Shown here: positions 12,621 to 47,040 of the stretch, piece by piece
Position numbering within the stretch: the first letter of the stretch is position 1
Layout of the letters: each line of letters starts with the position of its first letter
DNA from: Desulfovibrio sp.
GTDB taxonomy: Bacteria; Desulfobacterota; Desulfovibrionia; Desulfovibrionales; Desulfovibrionaceae
Direction: 5' to 3'
DNA length: 47,040 nucleotides
Assembly: GCA_031279825.1 (NCBI GenBank)
Contig: JAITHT010000082.1
Location: forward strand, 1-47,040
Notes under the pieces: generated by a model
Database searches by the model: none
Told to the model about the DNA's origin: nothing
What the model saw: only the letters and a program-made list of their open reading frames with translations
Made by a program: the position numbers and the translations under genes

Positions 12621-13434
12621 CCAATCTCCTCCTGTTTATATCGGTGAATCAGGCAAAGCGGTGTTCATTATCGCCGCGCGCCGCCGTCCGGGACCCTTGC
12701 AGGTGAAAATGTTCTATCCCTCCGGAGGGATGCGCGGCCGTTCCACCGGGCTTTAAGCATAAAGAATGCCGTTTTACGCCGGCAGGCCGTTGTATCCTGT
12801 AACATATTACTATATAACGATTTATAATATTTTATCATTTCATTTGCCATACCTTTGCCCACAATAAAAGTACATTTATGTTGTTTTATCCGGTGGCAAC
12901 GACAAAAATGTTTTTTTTTGTCGTTGCCGTTATGATTGCAATTTTTGATACATAATTTCAGTATATATATTATATATAAATATATATAATATATATAATA
13001 AGAAAAACGTGACCGCATCGCGTGACCCTTTTTACTCCCTTCTCCTGTTTTTTCGGCTCAAACAACGCATTATTGTTCATTTGGTGCAAAAACATACACC
13101 CTCCGCGTACACCCTTTTTCTTGTTTTCTTTTTTTGCCGTCATGATATGAATATCAGATGTATTCTTTTTCCAGCCATGACGGAGAAAAATCCTGTTTCC
13201 CCCTTTCTCTGTTTCCGGCGCATGTCGAGGCAACCGGCCTTGCATGGTCCGCGGACAATGCATTGGCGCGGCCTCGTCCCAGCTTTTTTTTCTCCGGAGA
13301 ACCGCCTTGCTCCCCCGAAACCGAAGGTTTTGGGAGGGAGCGTGCGCAGTCTCCTCATTTCAAAACTGGAATTGGAATGACACTCCTGCCGCCGACAACA
13401 TCCTCTATCCGCTCCGCATTGAAAGGGGAGCCAC
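12621..13434. other. Long AT-rich intergenic region with palindromes
   Basis: No credible gene was found between amtB and the repeat at 13435. It is strikingly AT-rich at 12785-13010. A 14-bp inverted repeat (GGCAACGACAAAAA / TTTTTGTCGTTGCC) at 12895-12928 looks like a terminator, and a run of alternating TA repeats at about 12970-13001 can self-pair. The rest (13010-13430) has no recognisable coding or RNA feature. Confidence 0.6.
12895..12928 (+). terminator. Hairpin with A/T tract, terminator-like
   Basis: GGCAACGACAAAAA pairs perfectly with TTTTTGTCGTTGCC across a short T-rich loop. The A tract before and T tract after make it look like a bidirectional terminator, although no gene ends nearby; it may mark a lost gene. 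Confidence 0.4.
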
Positions 13435-13602
13435 ATCCAAATGAGGCAGCGAAGCCCTTCAGGGCTTCGCGTCTTGCGCTTGGGAGGGGTCCCAACCCCT
13501 CCCAAGCTTCCGCCCCGGAAAGAAACCCCGCCCTTCATGGCGGGGTCGGGGCGATATCCGGCATGAAGGCCGGGGTTTCAGACCACAAAGGAAGTTCTGA
13601 TG
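13435..13602 (+). repeat. Multi-hairpin repeat, copy 1
   Basis: A 168-bp element nearly identical to the inverted copies at 32592-32757 and 41795-41962. In order: ATCCAAATGAGG end; stem GCGAAGCCC-TTCA-GGGCTTCGC; an 11-bp stem CTTGGGAGGGG/CCCCTCCCAAG; stem CCCCGCCC/GGCGGGG; a GGCCGGGGTTTCAGACCACA block; and an AAAGGAAGTTCTGATG end. In this copy that last end is exactly the ribosome site and ATG of the FecR-domain gene, so the repeat forms its whole 5' leader. Confidence 0.85.
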
Positions 13603-14871
13603 AAAAATCTTGATCGCATACCTGCCGCTCTGTCTTTTCAGACTCCCGTCCGCCGGGTCTGCACGGTCTGCCTGCTTGCCGTCTGCGGCATCCTCGCCGC
13701 CACGCCGCTTTTCGCGGCGAACGGAGAAGCGGGGCGGGTGATCGCCCTGACGCCGGGGGCGTTTGTCGAGCGAGCGGGGCAGAGGATTCCTCTGGAAATG
13801 AAAAGCCCGGTGCTGGAATCGGACACCATCGTCACCGATTCCACCGGCAAGGCGCAGATTCTCTTTGCCGACGACGGCAGCGCGACCCTCGGCCCGAACA
13901 CGACCCTGGCCCTGAGGGAAGTCGCGCCGGAAGGAAGCTCCGCCTCGTTCAAAGCCCATCTGGGCCGGGGCGTGGCCCGTTTTCTTACCGGCAAAATCGT
14001 CGAAGCCAATCCCGGGGGCTTTGCCGTGAGTACGCCCGAAGGCACGGCGGGCATTCGCGGCACCATCTTCGTCCTGCAAACGGGCAACGGCCGGACCACG
14101 ATTTCCGTCGTCAACGCCTCGCGCGACGTGGTGCTGAACGGCGTTTCCGTGCCCGGCGCGCACGAGCTGACCCTGCCCGGAGGCGCTCCCGTGCCCATGA
14201 CCCCGGCGGACATGGAGCAGGCCCGGAGTTTGGCGGCGGCCCGTCCGGCATCCGGAACGGACGCCGCCCAGGCCGCCAATCTGGGCCTGGCTTCGCCCGT
14301 GGACAACGCCGGGGACGGCGATGCCGCCCTGACGCCCACAGCCCTGGCCGATCTGGGCATGGGAACGCAACGTCTGGGGGATTCGCTCCAGGTGGGGCCG
14401 AAGGGAACCATTACCGGCTCGCTGACGACATCGACACTCACGGCGGCGTACGCATGGAGCGGCAGCTTCGCCTTTGACGTGGATCTGGGCAGCGGATCCG
14501 TCAGCAACGCCTCCATGAGCCTCTCCGGCACGCTTGGGCAAGACCCGGACGGGGGAGGCCTCCTACCTCAGGCAACATCCGTGAACCTGTCTAACGGCAG
14601 CGGCAGCGTGAGCGGCAACAGTTTCAGCATCGCCGGTTTTGTCGGAACGGCCAACTGGAGAGGGACGGCATACTCGTTTCCCATACCGTATAACACGCCA
14701 ATCAATACGGATCAGTGGGCCGGACCCTATGCGGCCATGGCCGGCGTCATCTCCCGCTCCGGTTCCAATGCCTCCGTCAGCGGAACGTATACCCTCAACG
14801 CGCCCGGCAGCCATGTGGGCGCCCCCTCCGGCGATCGCGGAACATTCGCCGGCAGCGGACAGTTGCAGTAA
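13600..14871 (+). CDS. FecR-domain protein with C-terminal beta-barrel domain, probable Slam substrate
   Basis: A 423-residue secreted protein. Residues 1-40 are a signal peptide ending TPLFAAN. Residues about 70-190 form a FecR domain: SDTIVTDSTGKAQILFADDG, LGPNTTLAL, and FAVSTPEGTAGIRGTIF. A low-complexity Ala/Asp linker follows to about residue 260. The C-terminal ~160 residues are Gly/Ser-rich beta strands (WSGSFAFDVDLGSGSVSNAS, GSVSGNSFSIAGFVG, GSNASVSGTYTL) resembling the small barrel of TbpB/HphA-type Slam clients. There is no lipobox. The Slam gene lies 13 bases downstream, so this is probably its exported substrate. Start and ribosome site come from the repeat. Confidence 0.75.
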   Translation: MKNLDRIPAALSFQTPVRRVCTVCLLAVCGILAATPLFAANGEAGRVIALTPGAFVERAGQRIPLEMKSPVLESDTIVTDSTGKAQILFADDGSATLGPNTTLALREVAPEGSSASFKAHLGRGVARFLTGKIVEANPGGFAVSTPEGTAGIRGTIFVLQTGNGRTTISVVNASRDVVLNGVSVPGAHELTLPGGAPVPMTPADMEQARSLAAARPASGTDAAQAANLGLASPVDNAGDGDAALTPTALADLGMGTQRLGDSLQVGPKGTITGSLTTSTLTAAYAWSGSFAFDVDLGSGSVSNASMSLSGTLGQDPDGGGLLPQATSVNLSNGSGSVSGNSFSIAGFVGTANWRGTAYSFPIPYNTPINTDQWAGPYAAMAGVISRSGSNASVSGTYTLNAPGSHVGAPSGDRGTFAGSGQLQ

Positions 14872-16452: not shown

Positions 16453-16502
16453 ATCCAAATGAGGTAGCGAAGCCTTTCAGGGCTTCGCTACCTCATTTGG
16501 AT
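16453..16502. repeat. Palindromic fragment of the multi-hairpin repeat, copy 4
   Basis: A perfect 22-bp inverted repeat: each arm is the ATCCAAATGAGG...GCGAAGCC end of the multi-hairpin element, separated by TTTCAG. Two element ends face each other with the middle missing. It lies 198 bases after the Slam gene and could also act as a terminator. Confidence 0.8.
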
Positions 16503-16545: not shown

Positions 16546-16854
16546 GTGATTATGGATAACCATAGTATCCACAAGCGGCACAGTCTGTGGCTTGACGAGC
16601 ACCCAAATGTATTTTTCCACTACACGCCAACAAGTGCAAGCTGGCTGAATAATGGTGGAAATATGGTTTGGCATCCTGACTCTCTCAATTCCTTGCGTGG
16701 CGCAAGCTTTTCAAGCACGCAAGAACTTAGCGCACAGATAAAGGCCTTCCAGGAAGCATACAACAAAACAGCACAACCGTTTGCCTGGAAAAACAAAAAA
16801 TTAAAGGCGCGCAGTTGACAAATTATATTAGAAATTTTTGCAATTAAACACAAG
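16546..16854 (+). pseudogene. IS630-family transposase, 3' remnant with right end
   Basis: Encodes the C-terminal third of an IS630 transposase: MIMDNHSIHKRHSLWLDEHP, HYTPTSASWLN, then RGASFSSTQEL and YNKTAQPFAW. Between WLN and RGASF the true sequence (MVEIWFGILT) is in another frame, so two nearly compensating frameshifts are present. A third indel changes the C-terminus to NKKLKARS; the copy at the window end has the canonical KKRKIKGAQLTN. The right terminal end (ATTTTTGCAATTAAACACAAG) stops at 16854. The N-terminal two thirds and left end are missing. Confidence 0.8.
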
Positions 16855-26754: not shown

Positions 26755-26878
26755 GAGCAGATCGACTTTGAAACGCTGCACTCGTCGCCCTCGGCGAAAA
26801 CAAATTTCGCCCACTCCTCGTGCACGTAAGTCAACGCTTACGCTGCCGGTTGACGAGCTTTTCAAAGTGAAAATGCTC
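26755..26878 (-). repeat. ~125-bp MITE-like element (copy A)
   Basis: 124 bp with imperfect terminal inverted repeats: GAGCATTTTCACTTTGAAA at one end and GAGCAGATCGACTTTGAAA at the other (15 of 19 identical). The inside (GCAGCGTAAGCGTTGACTTA, CGTGCACGAGGAG, TTTTCGCCG) matches the copy at 45435-45560. No coding capacity. Confidence 0.7.
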
Positions 26879-27032
26879 TAGTGTTTACCTGCAAAAATAA
26901 ACACTATAAAACACTGGAGGGGTTTGCGCCGCCGAAGGCAGCGTAAGTCTGCTGAAAATCATGTTTTTCAGCCGATGCTCCTGCAAAAATATCCGAAAAA
27001 ATATACTTGAAATTTTTGCAATTAGACACTAG
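26878..27032. mobile_element. MITE derived from the IS630 element
   Basis: 155 bp bounded by CTAG on both sides. The ends CTAGTGTTTACCTGCAAAAA and (reverse complement) CTAGTGTCTAATTGCAAAAA form a terminal inverted repeat with 3 mismatches in 21 bases. The right end is the same sequence that ends the IS630 transposase remnants at 16830-16854 and 46924-46950, so this is a non-autonomous derivative. CTAG/TA is the usual IS630 target. Confidence 0.75.
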
Positions 27033-27273: not shown

Positions 27274-27396
27274 GAGCGATTTCGAAATGAAACCGCTTTC
27301 GCGGCGATTGCTTCGTACGCCGCGCGTCCATGGGGCACAGGGAAATTCATTTTCGCCGTCAGCGACGAGTGCAGCGTTTCAGAGTTAATCTGCTCT
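27274..27396 (+). repeat. ~125-bp MITE-like element (copy D)
   Basis: 123 bp from GAGCGATTTCG to GTTAATCTGCTC. The right half (TTCGCCGTCAGCGACGAGTG, CAGCGTTTCAGAGTTAATC) matches the family closely; the left half is diverged. It ends 47 bases before the hydG start. Confidence 0.6.
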
Positions 27397-30054: not shown

Positions 30055-30256
30055 CGAAACACAAATTCCGCTTCAAGTCCAAGCTGTTCAGCCTGGATGC
30101 CACCACCATCAAGTTGTGCCTGTCACTTTTTTCCTGGGCCTCGTTCCGCCAAAGAAAGGGCGGCGTCAAAATGCATATGTTGCTGGACCATGACAGCCAT
30201 ATCCCGGCCTTTCTCGCCGTCAACGACGAGTGCAACGTTTCAAAGTTAATCTGCTC
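30055..30256 (+). pseudogene. IS4-family transposase fragment joined to a MITE end
   Basis: One frame reads KHKFRFKSKLFSLDATTIKL, then CLSLFSWASFRQRKGGVKMH and MLLDHDSHIPAF, the segment around the first catalytic aspartate (LDATTI) of IS4-type DDE transposases. From about 30208 the sequence switches to the right end of the ~125-bp repeat family (TCGCCGTCAACGACGAGTGC ... GTTAATCTGCTC). No start or remaining catalytic residues are present. It may show that the 125-bp elements descend from an IS4-like parent. Confidence 0.65.
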
Positions 30257-32510: not shown

Positions 32511-32591
32511 CAGGGAGGATTCCGGGCGAGAGTCTCATTCGGTTTCCGCTCTCTGAATACAGGCAAGTTGTATTTGGAACCGAAATTACAT

Positions 32592-32757
32592 CATCAGAAG
32601 TTCCTTTGTGGTCTGAAACCCCGGCCGAAAGGCCATATAGCCCCGACCCCGCCCTGAAGGGCGGGGTTTCTTTCCGGGGAGGAAGCTTGGGAGGGGTTGG
32701 GACCCCTCCCAAGCGCGAGACGCGAAGCCCTGAAGGGCTTCGCTACCTCATTTGGAT
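32592..32757 (-). repeat. Multi-hairpin repeat, copy 2
   Basis: 166 bp, over 90% identical by eye to copy 1 in inverted orientation, with all hairpins intact. It fills most of the 232-base gap between two convergent genes. Its ATCCAAATGAGGTAG end supplies the last codons and the TAG stop of the PilZ-like gene (DDIQMR-stop). Confidence 0.85.
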
Positions 32758-40883: not shown

Positions 40884-41747
40884 CTACGAACGTTGCCGGT
40901 GATCTGTTATTTTCCGGATGAGTTCCTGCAACTCCTGTATGGCGATATCAGCCACGCCCGGACAAAAAAGCATGGCGATATGCCCGAGGCTATGCGTGAC
41001 GCGCACGGACCAGCCTTGCGGCGGCAACAGGGATGAGGCGGGTAGCACGGCTTCATCCGTCGTGCTGATAACGGACGTGCAGGGAACTTCCTCCGGCAGG
41101 GCATCGTGCAAGACGCGGATGAAGGCAGCGCCCGGCAGAAGATGTTTTACCAGTTTCCCGGGTGCCAGGGCGGCGATTTTGCTTCCTCCGTGTGGTGTGC
41201 CCAGCGTAAGGACGCCGCCGGCACGTCGCCTGTTTTTGTGTTCAAGCAGCCAATGGCGGACAATAAGACCCCCCATGCTGTGGCAGACGAACAATGGCTT
41301 GTGTCCGGGAAAGGCCGCTTCAATTGTCTCCACATAGTCGTCAAGACTCCGGACGGCGGCTTGAGGGGAGGTCAAAAAACTGCTGTAGGAAAAGGCACGG
41401 CAGGCAAAACCGGCCTTGCGCAGACGCCTGTTGAAATACAGCCATACGGCGGCGCTGTTGTAAATGCCGTGGATGAAAATAAGCGGCGGCGCTGTTGAGG
41501 CGCGCTTGTTCACTGCTGCAATCCGGAGACGACACAGAGGGCTGAAGATCAGGGTAAGCAAGCAGAGGATATAGCTGCCCAGGATAGTGCCGTAGAGGAA
41601 CAGACAGGGAAAAATACCTGTACGCGGTTGGGGAATGTGCGCTTCAGGAGCGTTGAGACGCTCGTACCAATACAAAAGGCTGCCGCACAGAGCAAGTATC
41701 ATGCAGACGGACAAAAGGGCAAGCGCGGCAATAATGAGAATGGACAT
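40884..41747 (-). CDS. Membrane-anchored alpha/beta hydrolase (lipase/esterase-like)
   Basis: 287 residues from ATG 41747 (AAGGA 5 bases upstream; the in-frame ATG at 41753 is too close to it). Two N-terminal transmembrane helices (SILIIAALALLSVCMILALC; GTILGSYILCLLTLIFSPL) anchor a catalytic domain. The oxyanion motif is FIHGIYNSAAVW; the nucleophile elbow is VCHSMGGLIVRHW, with Cys in place of the usual Gly before His. LTLGTPHGGSKIA is the triacylglycerol lipase pattern, and HSLGHIAML holds the catalytic His. Substrate unknown. Confidence 0.82.
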   Translation of the reverse strand: MSILIIAALALLSVCMILALCGSLLYWYERLNAPEAHIPQPRTGIFPCLFLYGTILGSYILCLLTLIFSPLCRLRIAAVNKRASTAPPLIFIHGIYNSAAVWLYFNRRLRKAGFACRAFSYSSFLTSPQAAVRSLDDYVETIEAAFPGHKPLFVCHSMGGLIVRHWLLEHKNRRRAGGVLTLGTPHGGSKIAALAPGKLVKHLLPGAAFIRVLHDALPEEVPCTSVISTTDEAVLPASSLLPPQGWSVRVTHSLGHIAMLFCPGVADIAIQELQELIRKITDHRQRS

Positions 41748-41794
41748 ATACATATCCTTAATCTTTTATCCGGTTGAAGGGGGAGAGCCCTCGT

Positions 41795-41962
41795 CATCAG
41801 AACTTCCTTTGTGGTATGAAACCCCGGCCGCAAGGGCATATAGCCCCGACCCCGCCCTGAAGGGCGGGGTCTCTTTCCGGGGCGGAAGGCTCGGGGAGGG
41901 GTAAAAACCCCTCCCAAGCGCGAGACGCGAAGCCCTGAAGGGCTTCGCTACCTCATTTGGAT
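41795..41962 (-). repeat. Multi-hairpin repeat, copy 3
   Basis: 168 bp, same orientation as copy 2. The stems are intact, but the third hairpin loop differs (GGGGTTTTTACCCC instead of GGGGTCCCAACCCC) and GCTTCC reads GCCTTCC. It lies between divergent genes, with its AAAGGAAGTTCTGATG end toward the hydrolase gene but 48 bases from it. Confidence 0.85.
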
Positions 41963-45434: not shown

Positions 45435-45560
45435 GAGCCTTTTCACTCTGAAAATGCTCCAAGGCAGGCAGCGTAAGCGCTGACTTACGTGCACGAGGAG
45501 CAGGCGAAACGTGTTTTCGCCGTGAACGACGAGTGCAGCGTCTCAACGTTGATCTGCTTT
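45435..45560 (+). repeat. ~125-bp MITE-like element (copy B)
   Basis: 126 bp from GAGCCTTTTCACTCTGAAAA to GTTGATCTGCTTT; best match to copy A (26755-26878, inverted): GCAGCGTAAGCGCTGACTTA, CGTGCACGAGGAG, TTTTCGCCGTGAACGACGAG. It lies 19 bases after trmH. Confidence 0.7.
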
Positions 45561-46873: not shown

Positions 46874-47040
46874 TTAGGCAAGAGTCTCCCCCTGCCGGAG
46901 CAGAACAACTGTGAAACGCTGCACTAGCGTATAATTGTAAAAATTTCTAATAGAATTTGTCAACTGCGCGCCTTTAATTTTTCGTTTTTTCCAGACAAAC
47001 GGTTGTGCTGTTTTGTTGTATGCTTCCTGGAAGGCCTTTA
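46874..47040 (-). mobile_element. IS630-family element, 3' end with partial transposase
   Basis: The minus strand encodes KAFQEAYNKTAQPFVWKKRK and IKGAQLTNSIRNFYN, the canonical C-terminus of an IS630 transposase. The element end lies at CTAG 46924-46927. It closely matches the remnant at 16720-16854 but has better reading frames. The expected stop (AAT-TAA in the other copy) is AAT-TAT here, so the frame runs through the element end and the repeat to TAA at 46876-46874. The rest lies outside the window. Confidence 0.8.
46898..46927 (-). repeat. Truncated end of the ~125-bp repeat (copy G)
   Basis: GAGCAGAACAACTGTGAAAC followed by GCTGCACTAG is the right end of the repeat family, cut at CTAG (46924-46927), where the IS630 element begins. 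Confidence 0.6.

Follow-up and report, generated by a model that had tools for sequence, protein, structure and literature searches.

A palindrome-rich, probably mobile element of Desulfovibrionaceae that lies directly 5′ of ATGA and carries its own Shine-Dalgarno sequence

The window, by which we mean the whole 47,040-nucleotide (nt) stretch of Desulfovibrio sp. DNA that was analyzed, contains three copies of a structured repeat. Our analysis indicates that it is very probably a non-autonomous, palindrome-rich mobile element of the PATE/MITE type, which inserts 5′ of ATGA(A), has a built-in Shine-Dalgarno sequence, and leaves an edge that is kept as a ribosome site. In the proposed course of events, the element (about 90, 165 or 235 nts in the genome of the window, hereafter G000) would insert directly 5′ of ATGA(A) without target duplication, which for the same target on the other strand means directly 3′ of TTCAT. 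The native Shine-Dalgarno would be displaced upstream by one element length, and the AAAGGAA of the right edge would stand in for it when the ATGA is a start codon; because the Shine-Dalgarno is built in, insertion at start codons would be survivable. Copies within genes would be purged by selection and those before start codons would persist, selection being the putative cause of this survival pattern, and at start codons the last 27 nts would be kept as a ribosome site, with initiation presumed to occur at the Shine-Dalgarno of the element, while the hairpin body decays. Transposition would be performed in trans by an HUH (IS200/IS605-like) enzyme. The chance that an HUH transposase mobilizes the element is, in our estimation, about even or a little better; the consequences of insertion for a gene stand on much firmer ground than the mobilizing mechanism. 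The features of the window are as follows.

13422..13430, plus strand: relic native Shine-Dalgarno (aaaggggag), 4 nts 5′ of element copy 1, recognized from the sequence and counted among the relics in the Shine-Dalgarno statistics below
13435..13599, plus strand: element copy 1 (l2 family), ATCC...TTCTG, edges taken from the other copies and the tusA empty site
13587..13593, plus strand: element-borne Shine-Dalgarno AAAGGAA of copy 1, 6 nts before the ATG
13600..13603, plus strand: target ATGA of copy 1, including the start codon of the downstream ORF
13600..14871, plus strand: FecR-domain ORF (423 aa, PF04773), beginning at the edge of copy 1
16453..16502, no strand: perfect 50-nt palindrome consisting of two inverted left ends, with a 23-bp stem
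32595..32757, minus strand: element copy 2, target ATGA on the minus strand at 32591-32594
41798..41962, minus strand: element copy 3, target ATGA on the minus strand at 41794-41797

The original prediction described an element of about 167 bp at three places in the window, and all three are present, copy 1 on the plus strand and copies 2 and 3 on the minus strand, with the common end AAAGGAAnTTCTGATG kept in all three. The 5′ edge of copy 1 is ATCC at 13435. The 27-nt end has three matches in the window with up to 3 mismatches, compared with a mean of 0 in 100 shuffles, and the folding energy of copy 1 is -98.1 kcal/mol compared with a shuffle mean of -65.5 (z = -7.5). The end of copy 1 was correctly recognized as the Shine-Dalgarno and ATG of an ORF with a FecR-domain (PF04773) match. 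Placement at a start codon holds for this copy and fails for the other two (1/3): the frame read from the edge of copy 2 has only two codons, and copy 3 ends approximately 40 nts upstream of a hydrolase-fold ORF at 40884-41753 of the minus strand (PF00561; listed start 41753). The element was also supposed to bring both a ribosome site and a start codon. The ribosome site is indeed aboard, as AAAGGAA at the right edge, but the ATG at 13600 is best read as part of the insertion target, the ATGA lying outside the element. The palindrome of two left ends at 16453-16502 was absent from the original prediction.

Other repeats were observed in the window as well. A second dispersed family, GTGCAGCGTTTCAAAGTTAATCTGCT-like, is located at 26756-26862, 27350-27394, 30211-30255 and 45452-45558, and its two 107-nt copies are 83% complementary. 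In addition, 16739-16854 and, inverted, 46924-47040 are 91% complementary stretches with an AT-rich tail, found also at 26995-27032; their end (...PFAWKNKKLKARS*) is presumably the C-terminus of a transposase, and they are possibly IS remnants.

G000 is a 2.2 Mb assembly that is 83% complete. A DNA search with the element of approximately 165 nts gave 55 matches there, 40 of them 118-170 nts long; contig ends truncate five of the 40, two of which could thus be halves of one copy, and 40 of the 108 candidates were scored, so that further copies may be missed. The last 27 nts of the element, TTTCARACCAYAAAGGAANTTYTGATG, occur 72 times in G000 with up to 3 mismatches, compared with 0 for the reversed control. 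Contigs of G000, G009 and G010 begin or end inside the element (e.g. C93, C42 and C35 of G000), indicating assembly breaks and making copy numbers uncertain. For the edges, we used a pool of 166 copies for which the left and the right edge could be located (54 l2 and 112 l1), which were sampled from fetched loci and not from whole genomes. Their sizes with the ATG range from 55 to 294 nts, and the 54 copies of G000 with both edges placed form clusters of about 90, 165-169 and 232-237 nts with the same edges. Conservation among 37 aligned copies reaches ATGA and falls off directly after it.

The copies belong to two families, l1 and l2, which have unlike bodies and the same right end. l1, with left end ATGTTTCAATCCAC and a hairpin body different from that of l2, makes up the majority of the edge-placed copies of the relatives, which also contain diverged relatives of the l2 family of the window. 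Apart from the own genome, 13 of 98 relatives were matched in the search with full copies, in some cases by the end module alone; all of these belong to the same family, Desulfovibrionaceae, and 0 of 40 genomes from other families of the order matched. The end module is present in 10 of the 15 genomes of the genus, the own genome included, and, allowing up to 2 mismatches, in 26 of 247 genomes and 9 of 44 genera of the family, at up to 94 places per genome. This patchy spread was counted in favor of a mobile element. The matches listed in the named scan include Desulfovibrio MAGs, Mailhella, other Desulfovibrionaceae and Desulfovibrio piger. The MAG Pc512_bin104 carries both families (L218, L254 and L261 versus L201 and L256) and is either a double carrier or a mixed bin. 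No exact match to one element pattern was found in phages (viral_contigs), and the plasmid matches listed for a 701-nt D. piger query (20/34) cover only query part 393-697, which is ppiA where annotated.

Mobility, which the original prediction had suggested, is supported by two-sided empty sites at three orthologous loci, where the element separates the native Shine-Dalgarno from the native ATG exactly and, apart from 2-3 ambiguous bases, no sequence is duplicated. The three genes queried were picked for their relic Shine-Dalgarno. At the tusA-like gene, G000 has aaggagagcgcc-ATCC...TTCTG-ATGAGC (168 nts with the ATG) and G008 has aaggagagcgctt-ATGAGC; tusA was matched in 5 of 16 genomes, two loci were tried, and G008 was the only readable one. 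At the pal-like gene, G003 has ggaggaatt-element-ATGAACAAAATA (ATGAAC), compared with ggaggagtt-ATGAACAAAATA in G014; the gene was matched in 10 of 11 genomes, and among the nine loci read the module is present in G003 only. At panB, G003 has ggagatgcggac-element-ATGAAAAATACC (ATGAAA), compared with ggagatgcggac-ATGAAAAATACC in G014; the gene was matched in 9 of 11 genomes, and among the seven starts read the module is present in G003 and, in degenerate form, in G002. Inside an IS200 transposase gene, the right junction at ATGAACAG is the point where similarity to the intact copy of the same genome starts, and the left part of the gene is missing. At this locus, L415:1340-1510, an l2-like element lies directly before what is left of the IS200 gene, its 3′ part, and a membrane-protein frame, which we take to be DUF554-like, ends upstream; judged from this arrangement, the element can be read as an insertion into the IS200 gene.

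The right edge is followed by ATGA, in l1 mostly by ATGAA. This target is found also away from genes, with counts of A39 T38 G36 A36 for the 39 non-gene l2 copies and A41 T47 G40 A46 for the 48 non-gene l1 copies. The target matches 2-3 bases of the left edge (AT or ATG), which makes a very short duplication conceivable. The left ATG of l1 is not a mirror of the target, as 18 of the 112 l1 copies have a non-ATG right codon, and 13 of these 18 keep the left ATG while one has identical codons at both edges. Nested insertion into older modules was found for 1 of 172 copies, with 6 errors, and was not used as proof. A scan of joined flanks for disrupted genes was too noisy and was discarded.

For relic Shine-Dalgarnos at the left edge, we compared gene-start copies, with an ORF of at least 90 aa from the edge, with copies followed by ORFs of less than 60 aa. 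A Shine-Dalgarno core ending 3-10 nts before the left edge was found for 28 of 67 gene-start copies and 9 of 87 others (p = 6 × 10-6), and no excess was observed at the control distances of 11-18 nts (4/67 versus 10/87) and 19-26 nts (4/67 versus 11/87). The excess stems from l1 (25/55 versus 5/48); in l2 alone, the family of the window, the difference is not significant (3/12 versus 4/39, p = 0.20). Pairing of the left flank with the anti-Shine-Dalgarno agrees with the relic statistics (mean -5.38 versus -3.89, p = 8 × 10-4).

An ORF of at least 90 aa begins at the edge of 18 of 70 copies in G000, 29 of 50 in G003, 19 of 40 in G013 and 23 of 36 in G014; accordingly, 52 of the 70 G000 copies start no such ORF. 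Since all ATG triplets in the loci of these four genomes pass a like test at 27% (3502/12885), a stricter control was adopted, in which an ATGA site from these loci counted if an in-frame stop precedes it by no more than 60 codons. With this control, the coincidence with starts was 15/46 compared with 138/820 in G000 (p = 0.009), 22/32 compared with 43/274 in G003, 18/31 compared with 22/187 in G013 and 20/27 compared with 25/118 in G014 (each p < 10-6). For G000 the long-ORF share is thus no higher than that of ATG triplets in general and is separated by the stricter control only. These controls bear out that the element ends precisely at the start codon of many genes and, together with the relic Shine-Dalgarnos, indicate that its placement relative to genes is non-random. 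Given that the ATGA sites of the window comprise 7 at crude ORF starts, 51 in intergenic regions and 302 within ORFs, gene-start sites need not be sought out by the element.

Outside G000, copies without a detectable left end are located at starts more frequently (70/94) than those with a left end (55/109, p = 3.5 × 10-4). Homologous genes bearing the module in different genomes form 31 protein pairs among 170 proteins, HU and ilvC for example; some of the pairs are only paralogues. Both results fit insertion followed by retention of the edge as a ribosome site. Identity of the 27-nt end at orthologous sites is 0.89, compared with 0.49-0.64 upstream (15 pairs), a comparison that is biased because the copies were found by that very motif.

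For the genes behind the element, 20 frames of G000 were scanned from the edge (18 of at least 90 aa and two short ones; first 330 residues at most). Profile matches start close to the N-terminus in the case of DNA polymerase III alpha (DnaE, residue 2), IspG (residue 3), ArgJ (residues 3-5), a HisC-like protein (residue 2), cystathionine lyase (residue 1), a PhoB-like regulator (residue 5) and CstA (residue 2, profile position 33), and at residue 29 for ArgB. Other products named behind edges are TusA, DegT aminotransferase, a prephenate dehydrogenase-like protein and polysaccharide deacetylase. For LysS (match from residues 54-55) and a radical-enzyme activase (about 40-46), the N-terminal extensions mean that the edges of those copies may not be real starts. 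Several genes behind element edges are essential in other bacteria. A conserved leader peptide of l1 was considered and rejected, as the frames from the left ATG, GTG or TTG range from 11 to 81 codons and the element lengths fall in all three phases; an 11-codon frame is common to 16 of the listed MAG and D. piger l1 copies.

The hairpins were analyzed in an alignment of 14 hand-picked copies from six genomes, in which 94.7% of the cells are paired. Compensatory changes, the absence of which, like random placement, would have counted against the original prediction, were found: 8 of 45 pairs changed on both sides, and the covariation score was higher than in all 500 shuffles and all slid versions, although two weaker measures were equalled by 14 and 92 of the 500 shuffles. 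Such covariation would equally be expected if the element were recognized as DNA, by its single-strand hairpins. Pairing of the Shine-Dalgarno with an upstream TTCC never covaries and so gives no verdict. Whether or not the hairpin body is included, the Shine-Dalgarno of gene-start copies is predicted to be equally accessible (l1, 0.58 with and 0.59 without the body, 55 copies; l2, 0.64 with and 0.65 without, 12 copies). The suggested role as an attenuator of translation or transcription is left unsupported by the analysis. No Rfam family reached the gathering score in the window, and at the element loci the matches over elements (scr5239, sot0042, rnk_pseudo and CRISPR-DR9) were far below it. 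The l1 left end GTTTCAATCCAC...GTGGATTG at L092:1351-1413 resembles a CRISPR repeat (CRISPR-DR9, 26.2 bits; gathering score 45).

Three other explanations were weighed against this evidence. A family of cis-regulatory RNA, that is, an attenuator or riboswitch-like leader controlling a regulon through stems that act as sensors and gate the Shine-Dalgarno of the start codon, would account for the covarying stems, for the Shine-Dalgarno adjoining them, and for the homologous genes that carry the element in different genomes. We consider it very unlikely, since most G000 copies start no long ORF, the downstream genes have unrelated functions, orthologous genes have clean empty sites, the l1 and l2 bodies are unlike in sequence, and the body is without effect on the predicted accessibility; the Rfam results also speak against it. 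Even less credence is due to an inert REP/MITE-like repeat that meets start codons by chance. The G000 long-ORF share would allow it, and the GTAG at the base of the first hairpin is reminiscent of REP heads, but the explanation conflicts with the empty sites and the relic statistics and is contradicted by the stricter controls in G003, G013 and G014.

The third explanation keeps the mobile element and changes the enzyme, to one that makes a 2-3 bp duplication or to a recombinase with a 2-bp core AT. In its favor, AT or ATG is common to both edges and the target, and a Y1 transposase with matching ends was not found among the loci examined. Left and right codons vary independently in the l1 copies described above, however, and near-terminal palindromes with a one-sided target of 4-5 nts fit IS200/IS605 elements and PATEs, so that we regard a different enzyme as a possibility of lesser probability. 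The preferred reading thus remains a mobile element of the PATE/MITE type, with HUH mobilization as its less certain part.

The search for the mobilizing enzyme covered the Y1 family. Y1_Tnp (PF01797) gave 23 matches in 10 of the 15 genomes of the genus and 61 matches in 9 of the 12 genomes of other genera that bear the element; when 53 fetched Y1 loci were compared with three elements, in none was the gene flanked by element edges on both sides. No Y1 match was obtained in seven of the element-bearing genomes (G001, G002, G009, G010, G048, G115 and G135), several of which are incomplete. As no enzyme with matching ends is present among the Y1 loci examined, HUH mobilization is what we infer from the form of the element. 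The Y1 gene of the own genome has terminal inverted repeats of its own and was rejected as the source. The RAYT-like Y1 gene at L042 (G000:C53; 220-codon frame) and its internally deleted copy L043 (G000:C80) have common GGGGACATAATACTAATTATCA-type ends, and this pair resembles the inverted-repeat subclass of PMC6006769. Among long copies, which were read as DNA only, two edge-to-edge spans exceed 320 nts, L198 with 1188 nts and L269 with 423 nts, and the former contains a second left end at the normal distance. The guide-tetranucleotide rule of HUH elements is not apparent on inspection by eye; TTTGAA/TCTGAA near the target-side hairpin could pair with TTCA, although it does not lie directly at the foot. 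In G015:C45 (L401:1930-1980, and at the same place in L414), a palindromic left-end doublet, ATGAGGCAGCAAAGCCCTTCAGGGCTTTGCTGCCTCAT, is located just upstream of a Y1 transposase frame, which is a possible lead to the mobilizing enzyme.

PATEs, the palindrome-associated transposable elements of Haloquadratum, are related to IS605-type transposons (PMC3119063). The present element shares with them a length (here 55-294 nts) too short for a transposase, near-terminal palindromes, insertion without target duplication (apart from the ambiguous left-edge bases) beside a short one-sided targeting sequence, here a fixed one of 4-5 nts, a palindrome that lies farther from the edge on the target side, and forms in which the core between repeated palindromes is deleted. 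The one-sided target, the lack of duplication and the near-terminal palindromes likewise match IS200/IS605 biology as set out in PMC6006769 and PMC3119063. The present element differs in being bacterial, in a target-facing edge that carries a Shine-Dalgarno, so that start codons become a niche, and in that an IS605-type partner with similar ends was not found among the 53 Y1 loci compared. Since this partner was not found and the genome of the window is 83% complete, we call the element PATE-like and not a member.

High copy number and hairpins are shared with REP, REPIN and BIME sequences and their RAYT (PMC2817692 and PMC6006769). GTAG at the foot of the first hairpin, found in most l2 copies (GCAG in copy 1) and lacking in l1, and the inverted doublet at 16453-16502 resemble REP and REPIN forms, whereas the length, the defined edges and the ATGA target set the element apart. 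The one long RAYT-like frame of G000 (C53) has its own GGGGACA ends, with no element edge in the locus. We found no description of the element in the open-licence literature searched, and PMC3733652 mentions neither Desulfovibrio nor start codons. Short palindromic mobile repeats are a known kind, and it is the translation signal at the edge and the start-codon niche that were not found described in the literature searched.

HEARO/IscB elements are also structured and inserted next to ATGA or GTGA. The present element differs from them in having no room for an IscB gene, and no HEARO match was obtained from Rfam in the window or the element loci.

Short mobile repeats are usually viewed as tolerated between genes. 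Here, the element fills the gap between ribosome site and start codon, which by the usual reasoning is the worst place, and carries what survival there needs. We tentatively suggest, as a reading with somewhat less than an even chance, that selection for translational transparency has shaped the edges of a transposable element, and that start codons have in this way become a safe place for it to land. One edge would supply the displaced start codon with a new Shine-Dalgarno, and in l1 the other edge would supply the displaced Shine-Dalgarno with a new ATG, giving a short upstream ORF (MFQST...). If this is true, translation initiation of dozens of host genes in each genome, including genes essential in other bacteria, depends on the element, and these genes have a hairpin leader in common. 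The element also offers a way for ribosome sites to spread from gene to gene, and it has a bearing on how start sites are annotated in these genomes. For work on 5′ leaders it amounts to natural replicated experiments, one and the same 27-nt ribosome site preceding many genes in several genera (the gut species Desulfovibrio piger included), and it allows a concrete test of whether the ends of transposons evolve so as to leave host translation intact.
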